Source of the DNA: Oscillibacter sp.
Lineage (GTDB): Bacteria > Bacillota > Clostridia > Oscillospirales > Oscillospiraceae
DNA: 64,000 nt
Assembly (NCBI GenBank): GCA_022791875.1
Contig: JAAVZX010000077.1
Span: forward strand, 62,001-126,000
Reading direction: 5' to 3'
Below the pieces are notes generated by a model, which saw only the letters and a program-made list of their open reading frames with translations, was not told the DNA's origin and searched no databases. Shown in pieces: positions 40,791 to 64,000 of this stretch. Both the position numbers and the translations under genes were made by a program. Position 1 is the first letter of the stretch. Each line of letters opens with the position of its first letter.

Positions 40791-41251
40791 GGCGCGGCCT
40801 CCTCCCTCTGGCCAAATTCCTCCAGCGGATGACGCATTTCGTAGACCTCCATGATAATCTGGCGGGCCTCCCGCGTCTCCGGATGGATGACCAAGGGGCA
40901 GCGCAGGTTCACCGTGCTGGACGACACGGGGTTCTTCACGGCGCACAGCACATAGAAGCCCAAGGCTCCCGCGTCCTCCACGCCGAACTGCTCCAGCTCC
41001 GCCTTCTGGAGCACCGGCGCGTAGTCCGGCATCAGACTGAACGCGTCCATCACCACGAAGGCCAGGGCCGGGGTGGCGGTGCTCTGGAGGCACAGCAGGT
41101 TCCCCCCGCTTCCGTCGAAGGGCAGCAGCAGGAAGCTGTGCTCCTCCTCGAAGCCGAATATGCCGCCGGGGAAGCGGATCACCTCATCTGCCTCGTACTC
41201 AATCTCTCCAAAGTATTTGGTCTGGAGCTTCAAAGCGGAACCTCCTGTCAT
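40784..41251 (-). CDS. fliW: flagellar assembly factor FliW
   Basis: LQTKYFGEIEYEADEVIRFPGGIFGFEEEHSFLLL. Confidence 0.92.
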   Translation of the reverse strand: MTGGSALKLQTKYFGEIEYEADEVIRFPGGIFGFEEEHSFLLLPFDGSGGNLLCLQSTATPALAFVVMDAFSLMPDYAPVLQKAELEQFGVEDAGALGFYVLCAVKNPVSSSTVNLRCPLVIHPETREARQIIMEVYEMRHPLEEFGQREEAAPC

Positions 41252-41856
41252 GCCTGCACGTCCACCGGCTCGTAATCAGGATCGGCGGAGGGGGGCACGT
41301 ACAGCGGCCCGCCCACGTACTTGATAATCACTTCCGGCTTCTGCTTCACGGAGATCTCGATGTCTCCCGGGATGAACTCGAACTTCGTCTTGTTCACCCG
41401 CCAGTCGAAGTTTAGTTTATCCATTTCGTAGCGGATATTCATCTCGCCGGGGTCCCAGGTGATCTCAGGCGCGGCCTTGGGGATGAAGTCCAGGCCGGGC
41501 TGGGAGAACATCTGGGTGCTGATGGCGGTCTGGGACAGCTGGGCCTGGACGTCCTCGCCGATCTGGGCTTTCAGGTACAGCTCCCCCTCCTGGGCAAAGG
41601 AGGCCGTGGCCTTATACGCCGCCTGCTTCCCCTTGTCGGCCCCCTGCTCGATGGCCTGGGTGGGGGTGGGGACGATGGAGCTGCGCATTTCAAAGGTGTC
41701 GATGTTCAGTTGGATGGCGCGGCTTTTAATGCTCAGACCGCCCTTGTCCCGGGACACCTCCAGCTCTGCGGTGCCCCGGGTGTATTCCAGCTGTGCGCGG
41801 GACGTTTTCATCTCAATTTCGATGGGGACTCTGGTAATTTCAAGCAGTTGTTCCAT
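41248..41856 (-). CDS. DUF6470 family (YviE-like) flagellar-cluster protein
   Basis: LLEITRVPIEIEMKTSRAQLEYTRGTAELEVSRDKGGLSIKS; position between flgL and fliW. Confidence 0.75.
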   Translation of the reverse strand: MEQLLEITRVPIEIEMKTSRAQLEYTRGTAELEVSRDKGGLSIKSRAIQLNIDTFEMRSSIVPTPTQAIEQGADKGKQAAYKATASFAQEGELYLKAQIGEDVQAQLSQTAISTQMFSQPGLDFIPKAAPEITWDPGEMNIRYEMDKLNFDWRVNKTKFEFIPGDIEISVKQKPEVIIKYVGGPLYVPPSADPDYEPVDVQA

Positions 41857-49720: not shown

Positions 49721-51814
49721 TCACACGATGTGGGCCGCGGTGTACAGGCCCTTGGCGTCCAGGATGATGCTGATGCTGCCGTCGCCCAGGATGCTGCACC
49801 CGGTGATGCCGTAGTTCTTGATGTCAAAGTTGTTGACGTAGGCGGGGAAGGGCTTCACCACGATCTGGTGCTCGCCCAGCAGCTCGTCGACGAAGAGGGC
49901 GTAGGAGATGTCCCCGGACTCCAGCCACATCAGAATGCCGTTTTCCACGTCCTCCTCGCCGCCGGGAAGGTTGTATAACTCCCGGGCGCGGATCACGGGG
50001 TAGTAGCTGTCCATGAGCTTGACCATCTCCCCGTTTACGGAGTCGTGGAGGATGTCTTTATTGGTCACCTTCACACTGGAGCGGACGTCCTTGATGGGGA
50101 TGGTGAAGATGGAGTCGCCCACGGAGACCTCCATGCCGTCCATGATGGCCATGGTGAGGGGGATGCGCATGATGGTGGTCATGCCTTTGCCCTGCTCGCT
50201 GGTGATGGACACGGTGCCGCCAAGGCTCTCCACGCCGCTCTTCACCACGTCCATGCCCACGCCGCGGCCGGAGAACTCCGTCACCTGGGCGTTGGTGGAG
50301 AAGCCGGGGGCCATGAGGAAGTTCAGGATCTCCTTGTGGGAATACTCGATGTCAGGGGAGGCGATGCCGTTGCGGATGGCCTTGGCCAGGACGGCCTCGT
50401 CGTTGACCCCCGCGCCGTCGTCGGAGATCTGGATGATGACCTCGCTGCCGGTGTCCTGGGCGGAGAGAAGGATCTCGCCCACGGGGTCCTTCCCGGCGTC
50501 GATCCGGTCCTGGACGTTCTCTTCAATACCGTGGTCCATGGAGTTGCGGACCATGTGCATGATGGGGTCGCCGATGGAGTCCACGATGGTCTTGTCCACC
50601 TCGGTGTTCTCCCCCACCAGGGTCAGCTTCACCTGCTTGTTCAGCTTCTTGCACATATCCCGGACAATCCGGTTCATCTTCTGGAAGGTGTTGGACACGG
50701 GGATCATCCGCAGGGACATGGACACGTCCTGGAGCTCGTCGGTGAGCTTGCGCAGCTCCCGGGCGGACTTGTGGAACAGGTCCAGGTGCATCCCCTTCAA
50801 ATCCGGGGACCCCGTCACCATGGCCTCGGTGATGACGATCTCCCCTACAATGGCAGAGAGGGCGTCCAGCTTGCTGAGGTTCACGCTGATGAGGCTCTCC
50901 TTCTGGTGCTGCTGGGCGTTGGCCCCGGCGGCAGCGGCGGGGGGCGCGGCGGGCGCCGCCTTCGGCGCGGGAGTGACCGCGGCGGCGGAGACGGCGGCTT
51001 CCTTCTCCGCGGGGGCCGGCGGCGGGGGCGGAGCCACGTAGTCGTGAGGCTGGTAGGAGCGGACGGACCCGGCGCTCTGGACGGCGGCGATGGCCGTCTC
51101 CCGGGCCTCGGGGTGGCGGAACATCAGGAGGAAGCCGTTTTCGATGATGGTCTCGGCGGTGGAGGCGTCCTGCTCCACGGCGGCGGGCTCATACAGGAAG
51201 TCGGAGTCGGCGCAGAAGCTCTGCATGGCCGTCACCAGCATGTAGGCCCGCAGGTTTTCCATGCCGCAGCCGTCGTCGAAGAAGACCCGGAGCTGGTAGG
51301 GGAAGTCCGGATTGCCCTCGGACGCCTGGGCGGGGGCGGCCTCGGAGCCGCCTCCGGCGGGGGCCGCGGCGGGCGGGGCGGCGGGGGCCGCCTCCTCGGC
51401 GGGCTCCTCTCCCTTAATTTTAGCGATCAAACTATTAATATTTGCTAAGAAACTGTCGACATCCTTATTAAGGGGCTGTTCTGCCTCCACCTTTTCCATC
51501 TCTTCCCGGAAGTAGTCCACGGAGTGGAGCATCAGGTCGAACAGGGCGGGGCGGTTCGCCTCGGACACCACATCCATCGTGTTCTCCCGGATGATGAAGA
51601 ACAGGTCCTCGATGCGGTGGGAAACCCGCGCCAGCGTATCAAACTCCATCATGGCCGAAGAGCCCTTGATGGTGTGCATGATGCGGAAAATTTCATTCAC
51701 GTTGTCCTGTGAGAACGTATTCTCCTTTTCTGCGTCCAGGACAATCGTTTCCAACTGCTCCAGAAGCGTGTTGGTTTCATAGATATACATATCCAGAATG
51801 TCGTTGCTGCTCAC
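49721..51814 (-). CDS. cheA: chemotaxis histidine kinase CheA
   Basis: Hpt FRIMHTIKGSSAMM; MVRNSMDHGIE; GRGVGMDVVKSGVESLGG; CheW-like C-terminus. Confidence 0.96.
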   Translation of the reverse strand: MSSNDILDMYIYETNTLLEQLETIVLDAEKENTFSQDNVNEIFRIMHTIKGSSAMMEFDTLARVSHRIEDLFFIIRENTMDVVSEANRPALFDLMLHSVDYFREEMEKVEAEQPLNKDVDSFLANINSLIAKIKGEEPAEEAAPAAPPAAAPAGGGSEAAPAQASEGNPDFPYQLRVFFDDGCGMENLRAYMLVTAMQSFCADSDFLYEPAAVEQDASTAETIIENGFLLMFRHPEARETAIAAVQSAGSVRSYQPHDYVAPPPPPAPAEKEAAVSAAAVTPAPKAAPAAPPAAAAGANAQQHQKESLISVNLSKLDALSAIVGEIVITEAMVTGSPDLKGMHLDLFHKSARELRKLTDELQDVSMSLRMIPVSNTFQKMNRIVRDMCKKLNKQVKLTLVGENTEVDKTIVDSIGDPIMHMVRNSMDHGIEENVQDRIDAGKDPVGEILLSAQDTGSEVIIQISDDGAGVNDEAVLAKAIRNGIASPDIEYSHKEILNFLMAPGFSTNAQVTEFSGRGVGMDVVKSGVESLGGTVSITSEQGKGMTTIMRIPLTMAIMDGMEVSVGDSIFTIPIKDVRSSVKVTNKDILHDSVNGEMVKLMDSYYPVIRARELYNLPGGEEDVENGILMWLESGDISYALFVDELLGEHQIVVKPFPAYVNNFDIKNYGITGCSILGDGSISIILDAKGLYTAAHIV

Positions 51815-51901
51815 AAAAACACCACCTCATTCAGTCTTTCTAATAACTATCGACCCGTTGTGATAAAAAAATAAGTAGCGCACACAAGTTTTTTCTGCGA
51901 G

Positions 51902-53359
51902 GTGTCAAGAATGCCCGATTTACTAGGCGCAACCAACCCAGTCCCCGGCTATGACAAAGCAAACGTCAGCCGAAACGTCACGGTGACGCAGGACACCGCC
52001 AGCAACCCCCAGATACAAAACGTCCCGGACCCCTCCCGGGTCTCCCGGGCCGACGGACGCACGGAGCAGCAGGACTCCAACCTCCAGGGCGACGGCCGCG
52101 TCCGCTACGACTCCAATTTCCAGACCTTCCTCCAGCGCCTGAAGGACACCCCCACCATGGTGGAGAGCCTGGTCCGCATGTTCAGCGGGCGGGAGAGCAC
52201 CGTGGTCCTCTCCGGGATGAGCGGCGGCATCGCCGAGGAGATGGCTCAGGTGCTGGAGATGCTGCGCATGGACGAGGCCCAGCTGCTGGACTTCCTCATG
52301 GGGCAGTTCAAGGCCGGGAGCCGCTTCGGCGGGGCCCTCTTCGCCCTCCTCCGCAGCGCCTACAGCCGCGCCGCCTCCGAGGGCGTCCGGGCCGACATCC
52401 TCCAGTTCCTTAAAAACTACGTGGACTTCGACTCCACCGCCCACATCGAGGGCAGCATCCTCCGGGACCTGGGCACCATGGCCGACGCCATCCCCGCCAG
52501 CTGGGCCGAGAAGCTCCGGGACCTCACCGCCCAGCTCAAAAACGGCATGGCCGCGGGAGACCGCGCCGCCTGCCTCCAGCTCCTTCAAAGGGAGATTTTT
52601 CCCTATATGTCCTCCTACGTGGAGCGGACCCACGACATGGGCCTCCCCAGGGCCCTCCTGACCATGCTGGCCCTGAACACCGCCCGCTATGAGAACGGCT
52701 CCGAATCAAAGCTCATGGAGAGCTTCCACCAGCTCAGCGGCTACGGCACCCTCCGGGAACAGCTGGGGGGCATTGACGGGCAGTCTCTTCTGATGCTTCT
52801 CAGAAGCGGGAAGATGCCGGAGAACGCCCGGGCCGTCCAGTTCGCGGACCATCTGGCCGCCGCCGCGGCCAGGGCCCTCCGGGGGGAGGGCAGCGCCGAG
52901 GTCCAGCAGGCCTTCCAGAACCTGCTCAACGCCATGCTCATCAACGAGAGCGTGTATATGCCCGTGAACCACTACCTCCTGCCCCTGGAGTGGAACGGAC
53001 GGATGCTCTTCTCCGAGCTGTGGGTGGACCCCAACGCCGAGGACGAGCAGAACCGGGGCCGGGACGGGAAGCGGGGGGGAACCTCCATGCGCTTCCTCTT
53101 TAAGATCGACGTCCAGTCCCTGGGCATGATGGACATCATTCTCACCACACAGGACAAGGACGTGGACATCCAGATCGCCTGCCCCGAGAAGCTCACCCCC
53201 TTCTCCCGGCAGATTGAGGAGGCCGTGTCCGGCATCCTGGTGAAAAACGAGCTGAACCCCTCCCGGGTCCTGGTGCGGCGGATGGAACGCCCCGTGACCC
53301 TGACAGAGGTGTTCCCCAAAATCTACGAAGGGAAGAACAGTGTCAATGTCAAGATCTGA
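51902..53359 (+). CDS. FliK/YlqG-like flagellar-associated protein
   Basis: C-terminal LGMMDIILTTQDKDVDIQIACPEKLTPFSRQIEEAVSGILVKNEL resembles hook-length-control C domain; adjacent FlhB-C homologue. Confidence 0.6.
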   Translation: MSRMPDLLGATNPVPGYDKANVSRNVTVTQDTASNPQIQNVPDPSRVSRADGRTEQQDSNLQGDGRVRYDSNFQTFLQRLKDTPTMVESLVRMFSGRESTVVLSGMSGGIAEEMAQVLEMLRMDEAQLLDFLMGQFKAGSRFGGALFALLRSAYSRAASEGVRADILQFLKNYVDFDSTAHIEGSILRDLGTMADAIPASWAEKLRDLTAQLKNGMAAGDRAACLQLLQREIFPYMSSYVERTHDMGLPRALLTMLALNTARYENGSESKLMESFHQLSGYGTLREQLGGIDGQSLLMLLRSGKMPENARAVQFADHLAAAAARALRGEGSAEVQQAFQNLLNAMLINESVYMPVNHYLLPLEWNGRMLFSELWVDPNAEDEQNRGRDGKRGGTSMRFLFKIDVQSLGMMDIILTTQDKDVDIQIACPEKLTPFSRQIEEAVSGILVKNELNPSRVLVRRMERPVTLTEVFPKIYEGKNSVNVKI

Positions 53360-53666
53360 CGGAACGCGGGCCAAGAAGGCCGTGGCCCTGCAATACGGGC
53401 CCGGGGACGCCGCCCCCGTGATCGTGGCCTCCGGCATGGGCTACATGGCGGAGAAAATCGTGGAGACCGCTGCGGACTGCGGCGTTCCCATATACGAGGA
53501 CAACTCCCTGTCCACCATCCTGACCCAGCTCCAGCTGGGGCAGGAGATCCCCGAGAGCCTGTATCAGGCCATCGTGGAAATCTACGTGTACTTCCTGCAC
53601 TTCGACCTCTCGGGGCGGCAGCAGCAGGAGGCCGCGAATCACACGCAAGGAGAGGTGACATCATGA
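53340..53666 (+). CDS. EscU/YscU/FlhB C-terminal domain protein (YlqH-like export switch)
   Basis: KKAVALQYGPGDAAPVIVASGMGYMAEKIVETAADCGVPIYEDNSLSTIL; lacks TM domain and NPTH site. Confidence 0.85.
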   Translation: MSMSRSDGTRAKKAVALQYGPGDAAPVIVASGMGYMAEKIVETAADCGVPIYEDNSLSTILTQLQLGQEIPESLYQAIVEIYVYFLHFDLSGRQQQEAANHTQGEVTS

Positions 53667-54283
53667 CAGCAGGCAGACAGGAGGGCCGGGTGTACATGCT
53701 CCTGGACAGCGGGAACAACCCCCTGGCCAAGGGGAGCCTCGAAAACGCCCTCACTGATCCCAACCTCCGGGTGGAGGTCCTGGACAACAAAGCCGACGAG
53801 GTGGCCGAGCACGCCATCATCAACCTCGTGGCCATGCGGAGCGCAGACCAGTCCTTCCAGTGCCAGATGCTCCGGCAGCGGGGGGACACCGTGATCCTCA
53901 AGATCATTTCCAAGCTGGACCGGAACGTGCGGCGGAACCTCCGGGTCCCCGTGAAGTTCGACAGCTTTCTCTATCCCATCACAGGCCGGTGGCGGGGCCG
54001 CAGGGCCGTCCAGACCACGGACCTCAGCAGCGGCGGCGTCGCCTTCCGGGGCGCCCCGGGCCTGGAGATGAACGAGGAGATGGAGGTGATCGTCCCCGCT
54101 ATGGAAGGGCCCCTGATCCTGCGCTGCGAGATTCTCCGCATCCAGGATCTGGAGGACGGAAACGTCTTTTACGCTACGAAGTTCGTGGACCTCTGCGAGG
54201 ACGAGGAGGTCGCCGTGCGGGAGGCCGTGTTCTTCCTCCAGTTGGAGAACCGGGACCTGCACACCGCAGAAACAGGGAGGTAA
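53663..54283 (+). CDS. PilZ domain protein (YcgR/YpfB-like)
   Basis: RNVRRNLRVPVKF (RxxxR) and TTDLSSGGVAF (DxSxxG); ATGA overlap with previous gene. Confidence 0.8.
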   Translation: MTAGRQEGRVYMLLDSGNNPLAKGSLENALTDPNLRVEVLDNKADEVAEHAIINLVAMRSADQSFQCQMLRQRGDTVILKIISKLDRNVRRNLRVPVKFDSFLYPITGRWRGRRAVQTTDLSSGGVAFRGAPGLEMNEEMEVIVPAMEGPLILRCEILRIQDLEDGNVFYATKFVDLCEDEEVAVREAVFFLQLENRDLHTAETGR

Positions 54284-54291
54284 AATCAATC

Positions 54292-57200
54292 ATGACAACG
54301 GCACAGAAAAAAACGGCAGTCCAGCGGCTGGGGGCGGCGCTCCTTTCCTTCGCCATGCTTCTCAGCCTCTTCTGGATGACGGAACGGCCCGCCAAGGCCG
54401 CGGACTGGATGGAGCCCTATCTCGACCAGGTGGTGGAGTGGGGCGTCATGCGGGGGGACGCTACAGGCAACCTCAACGCGGACCGCCAAATCACCCGCGC
54501 CGAGTTCGTCACCCTCATCAACCGGGCCTTCGGCTACACCGAGGCGGGGCCCAACCCCTTCACCGACGTCCTCGAAAGCGACTGGTTCGCCGAGGACATC
54601 GCCATCGCCCACCAGGCGGGCTACTTCAACGGCACCTCCCCCACCACCGCCGCGCCCTATAACCTGGTGACCCGGGAGCAGGCCGCGGCCCTCCTGGGGC
54701 GGAGCCTCCGCCTCCAGGGCACCACCGGCTCCGCCTCCAGCTTCACCGACGGCAACGAGATCGGCACCTGGAGCCGGGGGCTGGTCCAGCAGGCCGCGGA
54801 CATGGGCATCATCCAGGGCTACCCCGACGGCAGCTTCCGCCCCGACGCCCTCATCACCCGGGGGCAGGTGGCCTGCTTCCTGGTCCGGGCCCTGGGCACC
54901 CTGGTCAACGAGCCGGGAGAGCAGACCTCCGGCGGCGTCTACGGCAACCTCACCATCAACACCGCCGGCGTCAAGCTCAAGGACACCACCATCACCGGGA
55001 ACCTCTACCTCACCGGCGGCGTGGGCCTGGGGAACGTGGAGCTGGAGAACGTGACCGTGCTGGGCGAAATCGTCCTCTGCGGGGCCGGCGAGGCCGAGCG
55101 GGGCGAGAACAGCGTGGTCCTGCGGAACGTCACCGCCGACTCCATGGTCATCGACAGCCTCACGGACCAGTTCCTCTCCGTCCGGGCCGAGGGCCTTACC
55201 GACATCGGGAACACCACCGTCCGCACCGGCTCCTACTTAGAGGACGTCACCGACGACGGCCTGGGCCTCAAGGTCATCACCCTGGACGGCGCCAGCGGCA
55301 CCCAGCTCCAGGTGGCGGGCAACATCAAGGAGATCGTAAACCTCACGCCCAACTCCAACCTCCAGATCGCCCAGGGCGTGGCGGGCACTGTCACCATGGA
55401 CGAGAAGGCCACCGGCGGGCGGCTCAACATCGACGGCAGCGCCAGCATCCGGGACCTGAACCTGGACACCGCCACCCCCGTCACCGGCACCGGCAGCATC
55501 AGCCACGTGAACGTCAACGCCGCCGGGTCCAACATCGCCATGCTTCCGGACACCATCTATGTCCGCCCCGGCATCAACTCCAACATCAACCGCACCGACA
55601 TGGACACCACCGCCGCGGCGGAGTCCTCCGAGGACCCCCGGCTCCTGTCCGGCTATCCCTTCATCAACAACGTGGCCCCCACCTCCGCCCAGGCCATTTT
55701 CAGCACCAACAAGGCGGGGACCATCTACTGGGTCCTCTCCACCCTGACGGACGGCTCCATGGGCGAGAACGAGCTGCTCAACCCCTCGGCCTACGCCTCC
55801 CGCATCCTCCGCAGCGGCACCATCAGCGCCGCCGCCTCCAAGACGGAGTACACCGCCCGCCTCACCGGACTCACCCGGGACGGGTCCTACTACGTCTCCG
55901 CCATGCTGGTGGACAACCGCGGGCGGCACAGCCCCGTGAAGGTGGCCGCCTTCACCACCCCCGACGACACCACACCCGCCTTCGCCTCCGGCTATCCCAC
56001 CACCATCATGACTGAGGACGAGGACGGCGAGCAGGTGGTCCAGGTCATGACCATGCCCACCAAGGACTGCCAGATGTACTACGCGCTGCTGCCCAACAAC
56101 GCCGCCGCGCCCTCCACCGCCGACCTCAAGGCGGGGGCCGTCACGGGGAACCTGGGCTACGGCGTGGTGGACGTGAAGAAGAACACGCCCCTGCTGGTGC
56201 CCAAGGTGAATACCTCCTACCTCCAGGAGCAGACCACCTACAACCTGTACCTGTGGCTCAACGACGCTGACAATGGCAAGAGCTCCGCCATCCGGCGGCT
56301 CCAGGTGACCACCCTGGACAAGACGCCGCCCACCATCACCCACCTGACCCATGTGGAGTCCGCCGCCAGGTCCGCTACCTTTACCGTGGCGCTGGATGAG
56401 CCGGGGACCTTGTATTGGGCGGTGGTCAAGGCCAACAACCGCTTCTACGCCCTCAACGAGAGCGGCCAGTCTCCCACGCCGGAGGAGCTGGTGGCCAAGA
56501 TCCAGATTGAGAACGGCACCAACGCCGTCCGCAGCGGGCGGGTCAACGTGGCCAGAGCCGCCACCGACGTGCGCTTCAACATCACCGGCCTGGAGGCCCA
56601 GACCCATTACGACCTCTACTACGTGGCCAAAGACCGGGCCGGGAACTACAACATCTACACCGAAAACCTGACGCCTCCCATGGAGTTCAGCACCCTGGAC
56701 AACGAGCCGCCCACGGTGGTCCAGGAGTTCACCCACGACGGCACCGACGAGGGCCAGAAAATCTCCACCCCCTATCCGGACACGGATATCAACCTGGTCT
56801 TCTCCGAGTCCGTCCAGGGCATTGAGTACATCAACGGCGTGGCCCATAAGGACGTCTTCCTGGACCTGTACACCGCCGTGGACCGCGCCCCCGACGGCTC
56901 CGAGGCCGAGCGGGAGGCCCAGGTCAAGCTGGGGCAGGCCCTGCGGAAGTACATCACCCTCAACTACCGGCCCGCCAGCGGCCAGCCCGTCCCCGTGAAC
57001 GTGAAGGGGGACCAGGACGTGGGGGACAACTGGGTCATCGACTACAGCAAGGCCATCGTCCGGCCCGACCCGGAGGGCACGGGGGAGCTGATCATCTCCT
57101 TCCCCACCGATAAGGACAATCCGGAGAACGGCGCGCTGAAACTGGGTAGCGGCGTGACCTACTACTTCACCCTGACCGGCATCGCCGACACCTCCCCCGC

Positions 57201-59307
57201 CATGAATGCCATGAAGGGCACCCGGGGCGTGGTGACGCTGCCCAACTTCACCACCATCGACGCGCAGCTGGTCTTCTCCGGCGGCTCCTCCTCCGGAAAC
57301 GGCATCACCTTTGACATGAACTTCCGCCTTACCCCCGTGACCACCCAGAACTCCAGCAGCGACACCCTCTGGGACATGATTTTCTGGTCCAACGCCACGG
57401 TGGCTTTCGAGATGTACTACCGGGATCTGCCCAACGGGAACTGGACCAAGATCACCGCACCGGATCGGGAGGAAATGCGCATCAGCACCACCACCCAGCA
57501 TCCCACTACGGGCCTGAGCTTCTCCAAGTTCCTCAAGACGGCGGAGGGGGCGGCGGATATCAACTTCGACCAGCTCCGCTCCTTCCAGAACGACCGGGAA
57601 TACGGCATTGTCATTACGGAGTGGAACGGTACCCGGGACCGGGGCACCTGGAGCGGCGAAACCTCCCTTACGATTACGCCTGTAGCCGGGGATTACACCG
57701 CCCTGACGAACCTGGCCAACAAGACCCTCTCCCGCAGCAGCTACGCGGAGCACCAGAAGGGGATCTACGCGGTGAAGGAAATCGGCGTGCCCAAGGAGTA
57801 TACCGTCTCCAAGCCCCACGAGGACACCCAGCCGCCTACCTTCGTCGAGCAGACGCCCACCATCGTCCCCGGCGACACCGGCGTGGAGATCAACTTCATG
57901 GTCAGCCGGAACAACTGCAAGTATTACTGCGTGATCACGAAGGTGGGCAACCTCTCTACCACCTTGAAGGGCAGCAATGGCGGTCAGGATATTTCCATCG
58001 ACAAGACCAACTGGGACCGTCTTCCCGAAAGCGGCAAGGAAATTATGGACCTCAAGGACGGCAACCTCCGCTATCCCTCCAAGTCCAGCATGACCGACGG
58101 TTCCATTACCGGCCCGGCCTACGTGGTCCGGGAAGGGTCCTGTGGGCGGCAGCTCCAGACCATCAGCATCCGGGATGAGCTGGAACCCGAGAGCGAATAC
58201 ATTGCCTACTTCGTCCTGCAAGGCGAATCCATGACCTCCCTCTCCGACACCTACGGCTTCCGCTTCAAGACGGAAACCGTTGTCCGGCCCGTGATCCGCG
58301 TCGGCGCGAACGCCGCCACCGCTAACGTCACCGCCGACCGGGTGGCCGATGTGCGCTATGTCCTGCTGGTGGACGGCCGTGTGCCCAGCCTGTTCCTCAC
58401 GCCTATGAAGGACAACATGGTGGAAGGCGCCGCCAACATGGACGGCTACAGTGCCCGCTATGAGAACATGACCATTCTGGAAGCCATGAGCGACTACGTG
58501 CGCCGGGGCAACAGCCAGACGGTTCTGGGCTCCGTGTTCGACCTCTTCGCCAACCAGGACATCAAGAACCAGGTGGTCAACTTCATGGACACCGCCCGAG
58601 GCGACGGCTCCAGCGTCATGCTGGTGGGCAACATGGCCCATAAGGGCAACAATGACGCCCAGTCTGTTGACTGCCAGAACAGCATGATCAAGAACAACGA
58701 CACCATGACTTATTGGTTCGTAGCCATGGGCAAGAGTCCCCAAGGCTCCGGCTACGCTTTCGCGGCGGCTCCGGACCTGTACTACCCCAACACCACCCCG
58801 CCCCAGGTCCTGTCCATCGCAACTACCATTGATGACGCTATCACCGGGAACCTCCAAGACAATCCTACGGACGCCTCCCGGATGACCTACACCGGCACTG
58901 TCACCATCACTTTCAGCACAGACCTGTACTACCTGAGCTCTTCCGGCGGTTCCCAGTATTTACAGGTGGTTGACAAATCCATTGCGGACCTCGGCACCGA
59001 TGCCCAGAGCAGAGGCTACATCAGCAGCGCGGCACTGATCACCAGCCCCAACGTCTCCGTCGAGCACCGCCAGGGCGGCTCCAACACCTCGCCGTGCAGC
59101 ACCCTGACCCTGCGTTACACAGCCTCCGGCGGCGGCGGCGCGGCCATCACCTTTGACCGCCGCCTGGCCAACAGCCGCGGCATCACGGGCAACCAGGCCC
59201 TGACGCTGACCATGACGCTGGTGCCGAACAACAACGGCATGTACGTCCCACGGTTCAGTCTGCCCACATCCCTCACTGAGTGGGGCCGTCCGTCTGTGAC
59301 GCCGTAA
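54292..59307 (+). CDS. giant SLH-domain surface protein
   Basis: Signal peptide MTTAQKKTAVQRLGAALLSFAMLLSLFWM; SLH repeats (ITRAEFVTLINRAFGY; NLVTREQAAALLGRSL; ITRGQVACFLVRALG); beta-helix-like segment; Fn3-like repeats. ORF track extends spuriously to 53860. Confidence 0.9.
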   Translation: MTTAQKKTAVQRLGAALLSFAMLLSLFWMTERPAKAADWMEPYLDQVVEWGVMRGDATGNLNADRQITRAEFVTLINRAFGYTEAGPNPFTDVLESDWFAEDIAIAHQAGYFNGTSPTTAAPYNLVTREQAAALLGRSLRLQGTTGSASSFTDGNEIGTWSRGLVQQAADMGIIQGYPDGSFRPDALITRGQVACFLVRALGTLVNEPGEQTSGGVYGNLTINTAGVKLKDTTITGNLYLTGGVGLGNVELENVTVLGEIVLCGAGEAERGENSVVLRNVTADSMVIDSLTDQFLSVRAEGLTDIGNTTVRTGSYLEDVTDDGLGLKVITLDGASGTQLQVAGNIKEIVNLTPNSNLQIAQGVAGTVTMDEKATGGRLNIDGSASIRDLNLDTATPVTGTGSISHVNVNAAGSNIAMLPDTIYVRPGINSNINRTDMDTTAAAESSEDPRLLSGYPFINNVAPTSAQAIFSTNKAGTIYWVLSTLTDGSMGENELLNPSAYASRILRSGTISAAASKTEYTARLTGLTRDGSYYVSAMLVDNRGRHSPVKVAAFTTPDDTTPAFASGYPTTIMTEDEDGEQVVQVMTMPTKDCQMYYALLPNNAAAPSTADLKAGAVTGNLGYGVVDVKKNTPLLVPKVNTSYLQEQTTYNLYLWLNDADNGKSSAIRRLQVTTLDKTPPTITHLTHVESAARSATFTVALDEPGTLYWAVVKANNRFYALNESGQSPTPEELVAKIQIENGTNAVRSGRVNVARAATDVRFNITGLEAQTHYDLYYVAKDRAGNYNIYTENLTPPMEFSTLDNEPPTVVQEFTHDGTDEGQKISTPYPDTDINLVFSESVQGIEYINGVAHKDVFLDLYTAVDRAPDGSEAEREAQVKLGQALRKYITLNYRPASGQPVPVNVKGDQDVGDNWVIDYSKAIVRPDPEGTGELIISFPTDKDNPENGALKLGSGVTYYFTLTGIADTSPAMNAMKGTRGVVTLPNFTTIDAQLVFSGGSSSGNGITFDMNFRLTPVTTQNSSSDTLWDMIFWSNATVAFEMYYRDLPNGNWTKITAPDREEMRISTTTQHPTTGLSFSKFLKTAEGAADINFDQLRSFQNDREYGIVITEWNGTRDRGTWSGETSLTITPVAGDYTALTNLANKTLSRSSYAEHQKGIYAVKEIGVPKEYTVSKPHEDTQPPTFVEQTPTIVPGDTGVEINFMVSRNNCKYYCVITKVGNLSTTLKGSNGGQDISIDKTNWDRLPESGKEIMDLKDGNLRYPSKSSMTDGSITGPAYVVREGSCGRQLQTISIRDELEPESEYIAYFVLQGESMTSLSDTYGFRFKTETVVRPVIRVGANAATANVTADRVADVRYVLLVDGRVPSLFLTPMKDNMVEGAANMDGYSARYENMTILEAMSDYVRRGNSQTVLGSVFDLFANQDIKNQVVNFMDTARGDGSSVMLVGNMAHKGNNDAQSVDCQNSMIKNNDTMTYWFVAMGKSPQGSGYAFAAAPDLYYPNTTPPQVLSIATTIDDAITGNLQDNPTDASRMTYTGTVTITFSTDLYYLSSSGGSQYLQVVDKSIADLGTDAQSRGYISSAALITSPNVSVEHRQGGSNTSPCSTLTLRYTASGGGGAAITFDRRLANSRGITGNQALTLTMTLVPNNNGMYVPRFSLPTSLTEWGRPSVTP

Positions 59308-59331
59308 GGCAGCTGATACCCTGAAACCGCA

Positions 59332-59359
59332 GGAGGGCGGGCGTTTCCGCCCGCCCTCC
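59332..59359 (+). other. perfect 12-bp-stem hairpin between two S-layer protein genes
   Basis: ggagggcgggcg-tttc-cgcccgccctcc; no T-tract. Confidence 0.75.
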
Positions 59360-59390
59360 GCCTGCTTATGGTAAAGGAGTGCGTATTTTT

Positions 59391-62300
59391 ATGAAATCCT
59401 TATTCCCGCGCCGCGCCGTGTCGCTGTTCCTGGCTCTTGTGCTGGCGTTTTCGCTGGCGGTGCCGGCTTTGGCGGACGATCCCGAGAATCCGGAGGAACC
59501 GCCTAAAGTCGTCTCATTCATTGAACTAAACCATACTACATTGAGTATGAAGGTTGGAGCTGCTGATCAAAAACTTGAGGTTTCATGGGAACCTGCTGAC
59601 GCAGTACCTCCTGTCATATCATGGAGCAGCGACGACGAAAAGATTGCCACTGTTTCAAACGATGGAACTGTACACGCGGTCGGTGAGGGCATTACAAAAA
59701 TTATAGCTAGTTCCCCCTCTCTGTCCCCCGCAGAATGCGAAGTCACCGTCGCCGCCGCAGATCCCACGCCGCCCAAGCCCACCGTCACCAGCGTCAGCAT
59801 CGAACCCAAAACGCTGGAGCTGACCATGGTGACAAGCCCCATCGGGGACCTCAAAGCCATCATCACCCCCGATACCGCCGCCTCCGCGAACCCGGTCACC
59901 TGGAGCACCTCGGCCTCCTCCATCGCCACCGTGGACGGCAATGGCCGGGTCACCGCCCGGGGCGCGGGCACCGCTACCGTCTACGCCTCTGCCGGAGACA
60001 AAATCGGTACCTGCACCGTCAAGGTCAATCCCGCCCCCTCCATCACCTTGGACCACACCTCCCTGGACCTCACCGTCACAGGCGGCGCGCAGAAGGTCAA
60101 AGCAACTTACTCTAATTACATTACAAACGTCATCTGGTTCATTTCCGACACAAGCGTTGCCACGCTGGAAGGTTCCGCCAATGGATCTGAGGTTTCTGTC
60201 CGCGGCCTGAAAGCAGGCATCGCCACCCTCACCATCCGGGACGTGAACAACGCCGCCCTCTCCGCCTCCTGCATCATCCGCGTCACCGCTCCCGATCCCG
60301 GCAAGGTCACCGCTGTGACCCTCATCGAGCCCGCCAGCCCCTACCTGGACCCCGGCGGCACCGTGGACCTGAAAGCCATCATCTCCCCCAACACCGCCAC
60401 CGCCGCCCTCTCCTGGTCCAGCAGCAGCAACGCCGTCGCAACGGTGGACTCCACAGGGCGGGTCAAGGGCGTGGCCCCCGGAACGGTCAAGATCACCGTC
60501 TCCGCCCCCGGCGGCTTCTCCGACTCCATCGACCTGGAAGTCTCCGGCGTCACCCTGGAGAAGCACACCCTCTCCCTCTTCATCAACAAATCCGAAACCC
60601 TGGTCTACCACCTCTACGGCAGCGTCAAGACCTCCCTCCCGGAGTGGCACGCCGTGAACCCCTCCATCGCCGATGCTTCCCCCGCCGGGCGGGTCACGGG
60701 CCACTTCTCCGGCTCCACGGACGTCACCATCACCGTGGGCAAGTACAAGGATTCCTGCACCGTCACCGTCTCCGAGGACCTGGCCCAGGCCATCGAGCGG
60801 GACCTGGGCACCGCGGGCTCCTACTCCTTCGCCGGGCTCCTGTCCGACCTCAACGACCGCTGCTACACCAAGACCAAGGCCGCCCTGGACTACGTCTACG
60901 GCCTTGAGGTCTCTACCGGCCAGGGCACCCTTCTCTACGGCTTCACCTCCCCCGACACCCCCGGCCACGGCGTCGGAGGCTCCGAGCGCTACTACTACCA
61001 GAACACCGGAAACGGCAAAATGCCCCTCCGGGACATCACCTTCGTGCCGAAGAACAACTTCGTGGGCACCGCCGTCATCGACTACACCGGCGTGGGCACC
61101 AACGGCGTCACCTTCATCGGCACCATCCGCATCACCGTGGCCTCCACCGGCGACGTGACCTATTCCACCGCCGCCGATCGGCCCGTCACCTTCTCCGCCG
61201 GGGACTTCTCCGCCATCTGCCTCAGCAAAACCGGCAAGGGCATCAACTATGTCACCTTCGACCAGCCCGCCGCCAGCCGGGGCACCCTCTACTATAATTA
61301 CAGCCCCACCGGCCAGTATTCCCAGAAGGTGGACGGCAACACCCGCTACTATGCATCCAGCAACCCGAACCTGAGCCTGGTCACCTTCGTCCCAGCGGAG
61401 GGCTTCGTGGGCACCGTGGACGTGACCTACCGCTGCACGGACAGCTCCGGCAGCACCTACGCGGGGCGGGTCACCATCACCGTCTACGCCCCCAGCGGGT
61501 CCGGCACGGGGGACGTGGAGTATTCCACGGGAATGAACCAGCGCTTCTCTCTGAACGCTACGGACTTCAACGACGTCTCCCGCCGCATCACCAGCACGGC
61601 CCTGGACTACATTCGCTTTGACAGCCTGCCCTCCACCAGCAACGGCATCCTGTACTACAACTACACCAGCAGCTCCAGCACCCGCGTCACCACCTCCACC
61701 AGCTATTACCGCAACAGCTCCCCCCGCATCGCCAACATCACCTTCGTCCCCGCCAGGGACTACCGGGGCACCGTCACCATTCCCTTCACAGGGCGCAACA
61801 CCTCCGGCAACACCTTCACCGCCAACCTGGTGATCCGCGTGGACGACGAGACGGGCACTGTCACCTACTCCACCCCCGCCAACCAGCCCGTTACCTTCAA
61901 CGCCACCGACTTCAACACCGCCTGCCAGCGGGCCAACGGCACCGCCCTGAACCGCGTCAGCTTCACCCTCCCCGCCTCCGGCAGCGGCACCCTCTACTAT
62001 AACTACATCAGCTCCACCTCCTCCGGAAGCCGCGTGGCCTCCAACGAGAGCTACTACCGCTCCGGAAACCCGTCCCTCTCCGGCGTCACCTTCGTGCCCG
62101 CCTCCAACTACAACGGCACCGTCACCATCCCCTTCAGCGGCTACGACGCCAACGGGGGCCGTTTCAGCGGCACCGTGGTCATCACCGTGGGCCGGGGCTA
62201 CAGCACCCAGGTGATCCGCTACAACGCCGTCACCGGCGGCTTCGTCCGCTTCGACGCCGCCGACTTCAACGACGCCTCCCGCGCCGTCACCGGGGACCCC

Positions 62301-63446
62301 CTCAACTACGTCCGCTTCGACATCCCCTCCTCCCGGAACGGCACCCTCTACTACCAGTACAACACCAGCAGCCGCACCGGAACCTCCGTCAACAGCACCA
62401 CCAGCTACTACCGTTCCGGCGGCACCCGCTCCCTGGGCGACGTCTACTTCGTGCCCAGCTCCACCGCGGGCGTCACGACCCTCCACTACACCGGCTACAC
62501 CACCCGCAGCGAGACTTACACCGGCACCGTGGAAATCACCGTCAGCGCACCCGTGGTCACCACGGTCCGCTACAGCGGCAGCGCGGCCCCCATCTACTTC
62601 CGGGCCTCCGACTTCCAGACCGCCTGCCAGGGGGCCCTGGGCACCGCCCTCTCTTACATCCGCTTCACCTCCCTCCCCTCCTCCGGCGGGCTCTACACCG
62701 GCTACGCCAACCCCGTCAGCCGGGGGACCTCCGTCGCCACAGGGACCAGCTACTACGCCAATGACATCAACCAGATTGTCTACCTCCCCAAGGCGGAGAC
62801 CCAGATGACCCTCACCATTCCCTACACCGGCTACGACGCCTCTGGGGCCAGCTACAACAGCACCGTGGAGATCACCCTCTCCAACAGCTACGCCTCCTGC
62901 CCCTTCACCGACGTGGCCTACGGCTGGGACTGGGCGAAGCCCTCCATCGAGTTCCTCCGCCAGAGCGGCATCACCACCGGCTACAGCAACAACACCTTCG
63001 GTCCCGGCCGCCAGATCAGCCGCGCGGAATTCACCCTCATGGTCTGCCGCGCCTTCCAGTTCCAGACCGGAGGCAGCGCCGCCAGCTTCCCCGACGTGCC
63101 CGCGGGCAGCGTCTACGCCGGGGCCATCGCCACGGCACGGAACCTGGGCATCGTCCAGGGCGACGGCGGGCTCTTCAAGCCCAACAACCCCATCACCCGC
63201 CAGAGCGCCATGACCATGATCTGCCGCGCCATCGAGGCTTCCGGACAAAGCCTGCCCGCCGCCTCCTCCACACTCCTCTCCGCCTTCGCCGACGGGGACC
63301 GGGTGTCCTCCTTCGCCCGCTACGCCGTGGCGGCGCTGGTCCAGATGGGCGCGGTCCGGGGCACCACCGATATGCGCATCAATCCCACCGCGGCCATCAG
63401 CCGGGCGGAAATGGCTGTTATACTCCACCGCGTCCTCACGCGGTGA
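59391..63446 (+). CDS. BIG2 Ig-like / tandem-repeat / SLH surface protein
   Basis: Signal peptide; Ig-like VTSVSIEPKTLELTM..., six ~113-aa LYYNY...YYR...FVPA..YxGTVTIPFTGY repeats; C-terminal SLH ISRAEFTLMVCRAFQF, ITRQSAMTMICRAIEA, ISRAEMAVILHRVLTR. Confidence 0.9.
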   Translation: MKSLFPRRAVSLFLALVLAFSLAVPALADDPENPEEPPKVVSFIELNHTTLSMKVGAADQKLEVSWEPADAVPPVISWSSDDEKIATVSNDGTVHAVGEGITKIIASSPSLSPAECEVTVAAADPTPPKPTVTSVSIEPKTLELTMVTSPIGDLKAIITPDTAASANPVTWSTSASSIATVDGNGRVTARGAGTATVYASAGDKIGTCTVKVNPAPSITLDHTSLDLTVTGGAQKVKATYSNYITNVIWFISDTSVATLEGSANGSEVSVRGLKAGIATLTIRDVNNAALSASCIIRVTAPDPGKVTAVTLIEPASPYLDPGGTVDLKAIISPNTATAALSWSSSSNAVATVDSTGRVKGVAPGTVKITVSAPGGFSDSIDLEVSGVTLEKHTLSLFINKSETLVYHLYGSVKTSLPEWHAVNPSIADASPAGRVTGHFSGSTDVTITVGKYKDSCTVTVSEDLAQAIERDLGTAGSYSFAGLLSDLNDRCYTKTKAALDYVYGLEVSTGQGTLLYGFTSPDTPGHGVGGSERYYYQNTGNGKMPLRDITFVPKNNFVGTAVIDYTGVGTNGVTFIGTIRITVASTGDVTYSTAADRPVTFSAGDFSAICLSKTGKGINYVTFDQPAASRGTLYYNYSPTGQYSQKVDGNTRYYASSNPNLSLVTFVPAEGFVGTVDVTYRCTDSSGSTYAGRVTITVYAPSGSGTGDVEYSTGMNQRFSLNATDFNDVSRRITSTALDYIRFDSLPSTSNGILYYNYTSSSSTRVTTSTSYYRNSSPRIANITFVPARDYRGTVTIPFTGRNTSGNTFTANLVIRVDDETGTVTYSTPANQPVTFNATDFNTACQRANGTALNRVSFTLPASGSGTLYYNYISSTSSGSRVASNESYYRSGNPSLSGVTFVPASNYNGTVTIPFSGYDANGGRFSGTVVITVGRGYSTQVIRYNAVTGGFVRFDAADFNDASRAVTGDPLNYVRFDIPSSRNGTLYYQYNTSSRTGTSVNSTTSYYRSGGTRSLGDVYFVPSSTAGVTTLHYTGYTTRSETYTGTVEITVSAPVVTTVRYSGSAAPIYFRASDFQTACQGALGTALSYIRFTSLPSSGGLYTGYANPVSRGTSVATGTSYYANDINQIVYLPKAETQMTLTIPYTGYDASGASYNSTVEITLSNSYASCPFTDVAYGWDWAKPSIEFLRQSGITTGYSNNTFGPGRQISRAEFTLMVCRAFQFQTGGSAASFPDVPAGSVYAGAIATARNLGIVQGDGGLFKPNNPITRQSAMTMICRAIEASGQSLPAASSTLLSAFADGDRVSSFARYAVAALVQMGAVRGTTDMRINPTAAISRAEMAVILHRVLTR
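60781..62890 (+). repeat. six tandem ~110-120-aa coding repeats
   Basis: Units starting about 60781, 61155, 61515, 61859, 62211, 62564 sharing YSTxxxxxVxFxAxDFxxxxxxxxGxxLxYVxFxxPxxxxGTLYYNY. Confidence 0.85.
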
Positions 63447-63463
63447 CGAAAGGGGAACGGACG

Positions 63464-64000
63464 ATGATGAATTGGTTCAAAACGCTCTTTGGCTCCCGAG
63501 TCACGGACCCGGAGGAGCCTTTGGAAAAGGAAGAGGAGCTCCAGCCGCTGGACCAGGCTTCCGCCAATATGCCGGAGCTCTACTCCGGTATGCGGGTGGA
63601 GGTCCTCTCCCCCACCAACAACCTCCTGTTTATGGGCACCCTCAAGCTCTACGGCGCGGGCGTCCTGGAGGTCCGCGGCGAAGACGGCGGACACCTCCCC
63701 ATGGCCATTTACAAGCAGGAGGTGAAGCTCCGGGGCTTCCAGAAGAACTCCCAGGCTTTCACCCTCTACGGCACCATCTGCCGCAGCTCCGCCAACTTCT
63801 GGCACATCGAAAACCTGAAAACCCTCCAAAATCGCGACAGCCGCGGCTTCTTCCGCCAGACCGCCGACGTCTCCGGCATCATCATCCCCAACTGCCGCTA
63901 CCGCGACCAGGAGCAGGTCCCCTGCACCCTCATGGACGTCAGCGCCAGCGGCACACGCATCAAAACCCGCAAGGAGTTCCCCGAAGGCGCCATGTTCCTC
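63464..64000 (+). CDS. PilZ-like (YcgR-type) protein, 3' end outside window; absent from ORF track
   Basis: Open frame MMNWFKTLFGSRVTDPEEPL...NRDSRGFFRQTADVSGIIIPNCRYRDQEQVPCTLMDVSASGTRIKTRKEFPEGAMFL; RxxxR and DxSxxG motifs. Confidence 0.75.
   Translation, partial: MMNWFKTLFGSRVTDPEEPLEKEEELQPLDQASANMPELYSGMRVEVLSPTNNLLFMGTLKLYGAGVLEVRGEDGGHLPMAIYKQEVKLRGFQKNSQAFTLYGTICRSSANFWHIENLKTLQNRDSRGFFRQTADVSGIIIPNCRYRDQEQVPCTLMDVSASGTRIKTRKEFPEGAMFL

Follow-up and report, generated by a model that had tools for sequence, protein, structure and literature searches.

A putative accessory flagellar operon of Oscillospirales combining a FliK-like protein, a solo FlhB C-domain, PilZ proteins and SLH proteins

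The window (64,000 nt; positions 62001–126000 of contig 31 of an assembly that is 84.6% complete) carries genes for large SLH proteins in a run with a lone FlhB C-terminal domain and PilZ proteins. The closest named relatives at this locus belong to Oscillibacter. Why should such genes stand together? The first-pass annotation had proposed a c-di-GMP-responsive module that may coordinate the secretion or assembly of surface-layer proteins with motility, and the question addressed here is whether the genes, their neighbours and their relatives in other genomes favour that explanation or another.

Six genes in a flagellar island

All six genes of the run were confirmed. They lie on the forward strand, divergent from cheA (nt 49721–51814, reverse strand, with CheA domains), and specify in order FliKL, a FliK-like protein of 482 aa (nt 51911–53359), a solo FlhB C-terminal domain of the FlhX/YlqH type (FlhB-C; nt 53346–53666), PilZ1 (nt 53663–54283), SLH_D (1671 aa; nt 54292–59307), the Big_2/SLH protein BIGSLH_E (1351 aa; nt 59391–63446; assigned by Pfam) and PilZ2 (nt 63464–64189), the final 189 bases of which fall outside the window, which ends at nt 64000. 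The successive junctions are −14, −4 (an ATGA overlap), 8, 83 and 17 nt. The tight co-directional run described by the first-pass annotation is thus borne out, and the six genes are presumably co-transcribed. FliKL starts at the ATG at nt 51911 (MPDLLGATNPVPGYD), a conserved start lying nine bases inside a GTG ORF that begins at nt 51902.

The run is part of a flagellar/chemotaxis island of about 45 kb. On one side lie csrA, fliW, DUF6470, flgL, flgK, flgN, flgM and cheB-R-W-A, and on the other an MCP gene, fliS, fliD, cheV/C/D-like genes, two rod genes (flgG named), a sigma-28-like gene whose identity was read from the sequence, and flhA, within which the contig ends. The DUF6470 protein (nt 41248–41856) is kept between flgL and fliW in all loci. 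A ClpB-like AAA protein with a single AAA domain follows PilZ2 (L004:14635-16044) and holds this position in most near relatives, while a lysine/alanine-rich unannotated protein and a PilM/FtsA-like ATPase, both conserved, adjoin the operon (L004:16026-19266).

The spacer between cheA and FliKL (nt 51815–51910) contains a conserved sigma-28-type −10 element on the cheA strand. The motif GYCGATA was found in 69 of 74 such spacers, compared with 1.0 expected by shuffling, and in 60 spacers it stands 13–14 nt after a TTAATT or TTATTT box. The possibility that FliKL is read from a sigma-28-type promoter was considered and rejected, as no such box occurs on that strand in the cheA/FliKL spacers and the conserved box reads toward cheA. 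An Rfam search of the window found no riboswitch or other RNA control element, and a PHROGs search gave no match.

FliKL, the solo FlhB domain and the PilZ proteins

FliKL has a TNPVPG N-terminal region, a helical middle and a C-terminal domain that may be T3S4-like. Across 41 homologues it shows 42–78% identity, and the TNPVPG region is invariant. The protein of the window matched no Pfam or NCBIfam family, including PF02120 (Flg_hook), and only three of the 41 homologues gave a weak match to PF02120 (best E = 0.023). Profile alignment (hhalign) related its C-terminus to Flg_hook-bearing YlqG-like proteins (E = 6.9e-6), which in other families are encoded just before a solo FlhB-C; FliKL gave only a weak alignment with the FliK proper of the group (E = 0.09). 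The predicted model of residues 356–460 is a beta-rich fold with one helix, and its best specific PDB match (Foldseek) was the PscP SS domain (5cuk), with a probability of 0.91 but an E-value of 0.68. Sequence searches of the PDB with FliKL and PilZ1 profiles returned matches at noise level. The FliK/YlqG-like label given in the first-pass annotation stands on weaker evidence than a Pfam or NCBIfam assignment, and likeness to true FliK is weak.

The solo FlhB gene was recognised correctly in that annotation. Its product (106 aa) scores above the PF01312 cut-off (E = 1.9e-17), covers only positions 262–334 of the 335 in that model and has no membrane part; against TIGR00789 it reached 86.1 bits (E = 1.4e-24), where the curated cut-off is 117.35. 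The NPTH autocleavage site is present in none of 79 solo homologues and is present in the full-length FlhB of relatives, a separate full-length FlhB being encoded in all 25 flagellated relatives tested. In the window's own assembly, which is broken inside flhA, flhB was not found. FliKL and FlhB-C overlap in 65 of 79 loci, by 14 nt in about 64 of them, the remainder being nearly all artefacts of ORF calling by the script, and the spacing between FlhB-C and PilZ1 is mostly −4 to +23 nt.

PilZ1 (PF07238, E = 1.4e-8), a predicted c-di-GMP receptor with an extra N-terminal domain, conserves the c-di-GMP motif RxxxR + DxSxGG among its homologues: R94, D120, S122, G124 and G125 are invariant in 37 of them and R90 is nearly so. 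PilZ2 (PF07238, E = 9e-13), a second predicted receptor, carries RxxxR and DxSxxG, as read directly in the sequence, and GGDEF proteins are encoded in the genome. A third PilZ protein with intact RxxxR and NxSxxG motifs lies on another contig, C66 (L007:9288-9974), where no flagellar neighbour was recognised. The flagellar island itself encodes, beyond the window end on contig 31, an EAL-HDOD protein whose EAL match is partial (L005:7486-8766), which is a possible further link to c-di-GMP; homologues occur at the same island in genomes G051 and G106.

SLH_D and its occurrence with flagella

SLH_D consists of a Sec-type signal, three N-terminal SLH domains, a beta-helix, Ig/FN3-like domains and a conserved C-terminal part, the domain names being read from the strands of the model, from sequence, and from PDB and Foldseek matches. 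Its SLH domains matched PF00395 at E = 8e-26. Conservation across 28 species extends along the entire protein, many residues being invariant and the length changing little. The AF2 model of residues 200–1010 (pLDDT 86) shows a beta-helix followed by Ig-like domains. Foldseek otherwise returned generic FN3/Ig arrays, and one match to a mastigoneme was given no weight. BIGSLH_E has a Sec-type signal, Big_2 and cadherin/CshA-like repeats, and three C-terminal SLH domains. Sec-like signals, called by a simple hydrophobicity rule that is rough, were found in 64 of 65 SLH_D ORFs and 61 of 62 BIGSLH_E ORFs. In some species a second SLH_D-like protein, without the SLH and beta-helix part, is encoded between the two (L092:9152-12667, L087:4773-8474).

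The gene order is kept in 80 named Oscillospirales loci, and the neighbourhood occurs in two families of the order. Counting in each case the loci with enough flank, FlhB-C was found in 79/79, PilZ1 in 76/77, an adjacent and divergent cheA in 72/76, SLH_D directly downstream in 67/75 and BIGSLH_E in 62/68. Of the second GTDB family, two genomes (G084 and G106) carry just the four-gene core. L188 and L189 look like a single locus present twice, on separate contigs of the assembly CAMNQF01, probably through duplication in assembly. Across the 80 loci the PilZ1/SLH_D gap has a median of 107 nt and in some reaches 410 nt, so that SLH_D may have its own promoter there.

Among 119 relatives, FliKL was detected in 32, with PilZ1 about 300 nt downstream wherever both lay on one contig. 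The SLH_D core (residues 200–1010, a query that leaves out the SLH domains) was found in precisely these 32 and was missing from the other 87. FlhA was detected in 29 of the 32, the three misses being only 56–76% complete. Eight more FlhA-bearing genomes, from other families, are without FliKL. Flagellated, SLH-bearing genomes of other families are without SLH_D, which is not a general need of such genomes. In 16 non-flagellated congeners (at least 90% complete) SLH proteins are present and SLH_D was not found; their matches to it cover the SLH part and little beyond (best E = 6e-29). The genome of the window contains 76 SLH domains, so one SLH neighbour alone means little, and it is the 67/75 loci and the identical 32/32 occurrence that make the association more than chance. 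Part of this agreement is owed to common ancestry. The distances of the proteins are correlated (r = 0.54–0.76), but values of this size arise from shared descent alone and were not counted as evidence.

In eight loci SLH_D does not follow directly downstream. Four of these (L182, L209, L210 and L226), which occupy three places in the FliKL tree, carry the trio of FliKL, FlhB-C and PilZ1 in genomes with no detectable SLH_D match and not even SLH domains. The genes directly after the trio are flgB-flgC-fliE-fliF-fliG in L182 and L210, and in L226 the trio lies between flagellin and fliD-fliS, genes that were identified by reading the sequences. In L219, L221, L227 and L231 SLH_D is elsewhere or just upstream, and in the last two it precedes FliKL and is still linked. 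[Clostridium] viride has the trio beside cheA and an SLH_D homologue away from the operon. As the trio goes with FlhA inside the group, and runs directly into flagellar operons where SLH_D is absent, it is flagellar. SLH_D behaves as a flagellum-dependent envelope protein and not as cargo of a type III switch, export of the SLH proteins by that route being rejected in view of their Sec-like signals and of the SLH-free carriers of the trio. Its need for both flagella and an SLH-bearing envelope argues for a wall-side role, and its occurrence suggests a partner, so far undescribed, that connects flagella with the cell surface.

Overall, it seems somewhat probable that the locus is an accessory flagellar operon with a FliK-FlhX-type switch pair, PilZ c-di-GMP receptors and, in SLH_D, a partner of the flagellum on the side of the wall. 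In this reading FliKL and the solo FlhB domain would form an extra substrate-switch pair, of the FliK-FlhX kind, for the flagellar type III export gate, and PilZ1 and PilZ2 would bind c-di-GMP in the cytoplasm and adjust flagellar export or the working of the motor. SLH_D, along with BIGSLH_E, would be exported by Sec and held on wall polymer by its SLH domains, where it may contact the flagellum of species with an SLH-bearing envelope, for example as a collar or spacer at the crossing of the surface coat. The collar is the least certain of these parts. Its boldest form, which we put forward tentatively and rather doubt, makes SLH_D a Gram-positive counterpart of the outer flagellar ring, that is, an SLH-anchored beta-helix/Ig collar that allows the flagellum to traverse the coat and rotate in it and is supplied by a c-di-GMP-responsive operon with an extra export switch.

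Motility regulons are known to include wall and surface proteins, and SLH_D and BIGSLH_E could be ordinary adhesins or coat proteins under the late flagellar regulon, co-regulated so that motile cells have a different surface and without flagellar contact. The abundance of SLH domains in the genome and the resemblance of BIGSLH_E to a repeat adhesin fit this; whole-length conservation such as that of SLH_D would, however, be unusual for an adhesin, and [C.] viride retains the protein away from the operon. We consider this explanation unlikely, though it carries appreciable weight. The slow rearrangement of an old flagellar island is a further way to keep genes together by common descent with no functional tie of SLH_D to flagella, and other island genes are indeed syntenic too. 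Yet SLH_D is missing at three positions of the tree (a count of independent losses covering the SLH-free trio carriers only), exactly where SLH proteins are absent, it stays linked after moving upstream of FliKL in L227 and L231, and no non-flagellated relative tested has it; synteny by itself is very improbable as the cause. Control of S-layer protein secretion or assembly by c-di-GMP, through PilZ and the FlhB-like switch domain, was the part of the original proposal that found no support. The tight co-directional genes, intact PilZ motifs and GGDEF proteins are what it would predict, but the SLH proteins carry Sec-like signals and the trio persists where no SLH protein was detected. It is improbable, and less likely than the reading in which the operon is flagellar and its SLH envelope protein depends on the flagellum, while the module as such is supported by the conserved neighbourhood, the PilZ motifs and the GGDEF proteins.

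Comparison with known systems

No prior description of the operon was found in the open-access literature searched, a scope that takes in few subscription papers. Little is known of how flagella traverse a coated Gram-positive envelope and are held in it, and the function of solo FlhB C-domains is not settled. In gut bacteria the operon offers a conserved candidate, an envelope protein that depends on flagella for its presence and is tied to an export switch and c-di-GMP. O. valericigenes is peritrichously flagellated and shows oscillatory motility (PMC3558957).

The FliK-FlhX pair (HP1575/YlqH type) likewise has a solo FlhB C-domain beside a FliK-type gene; it goes with a separate full-length FlhB, as in the 25 flagellated relatives tested here. 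In Nitratiruptor a flhX-fliK pair is reported to lie apart from the main cluster (PMC9321776), and HP1575 is described as a spare part for FlhB function in the title of Wand et al. 2006, as cited in PMC3040844. In the present locus, in contrast, overlapping reading frames tie the pair to a PilZ gene, an SLH gene is joined to them, and FliKL is unusual in its conservation and falls outside the FliK model of Pfam. PilZ1 and PilZ2 resemble the YcgR/MotI-type flagellar brakes in size, flagellar link and intact binding motif, but neither they nor the third PilZ protein matched the solved YcgR or MotI structures by sequence.

Among SLH proteins, SlhA of Paenibacillus alvei is needed for swarming, and its mutant still assembles flagella (PMC3776848). 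SlhA is encoded at a wall-polymer locus and has a CBM6 module and C-terminal SLH domains, whereas SLH_D is encoded in a flagellar island and has N-terminal SLH domains, a beta-helix and Ig-like domains. Sequence matches of SLH_D in the PDB were to the SLH domains of Bacillus Sap and the beta-helix region of Paenibacillus ChiW (chains 5gzt, 3pyw and 9g93). SLH_D shares with these proteins its SLH domains and beta-helix region, but differs in its link to flagella and in lacking a recognised catalytic domain.
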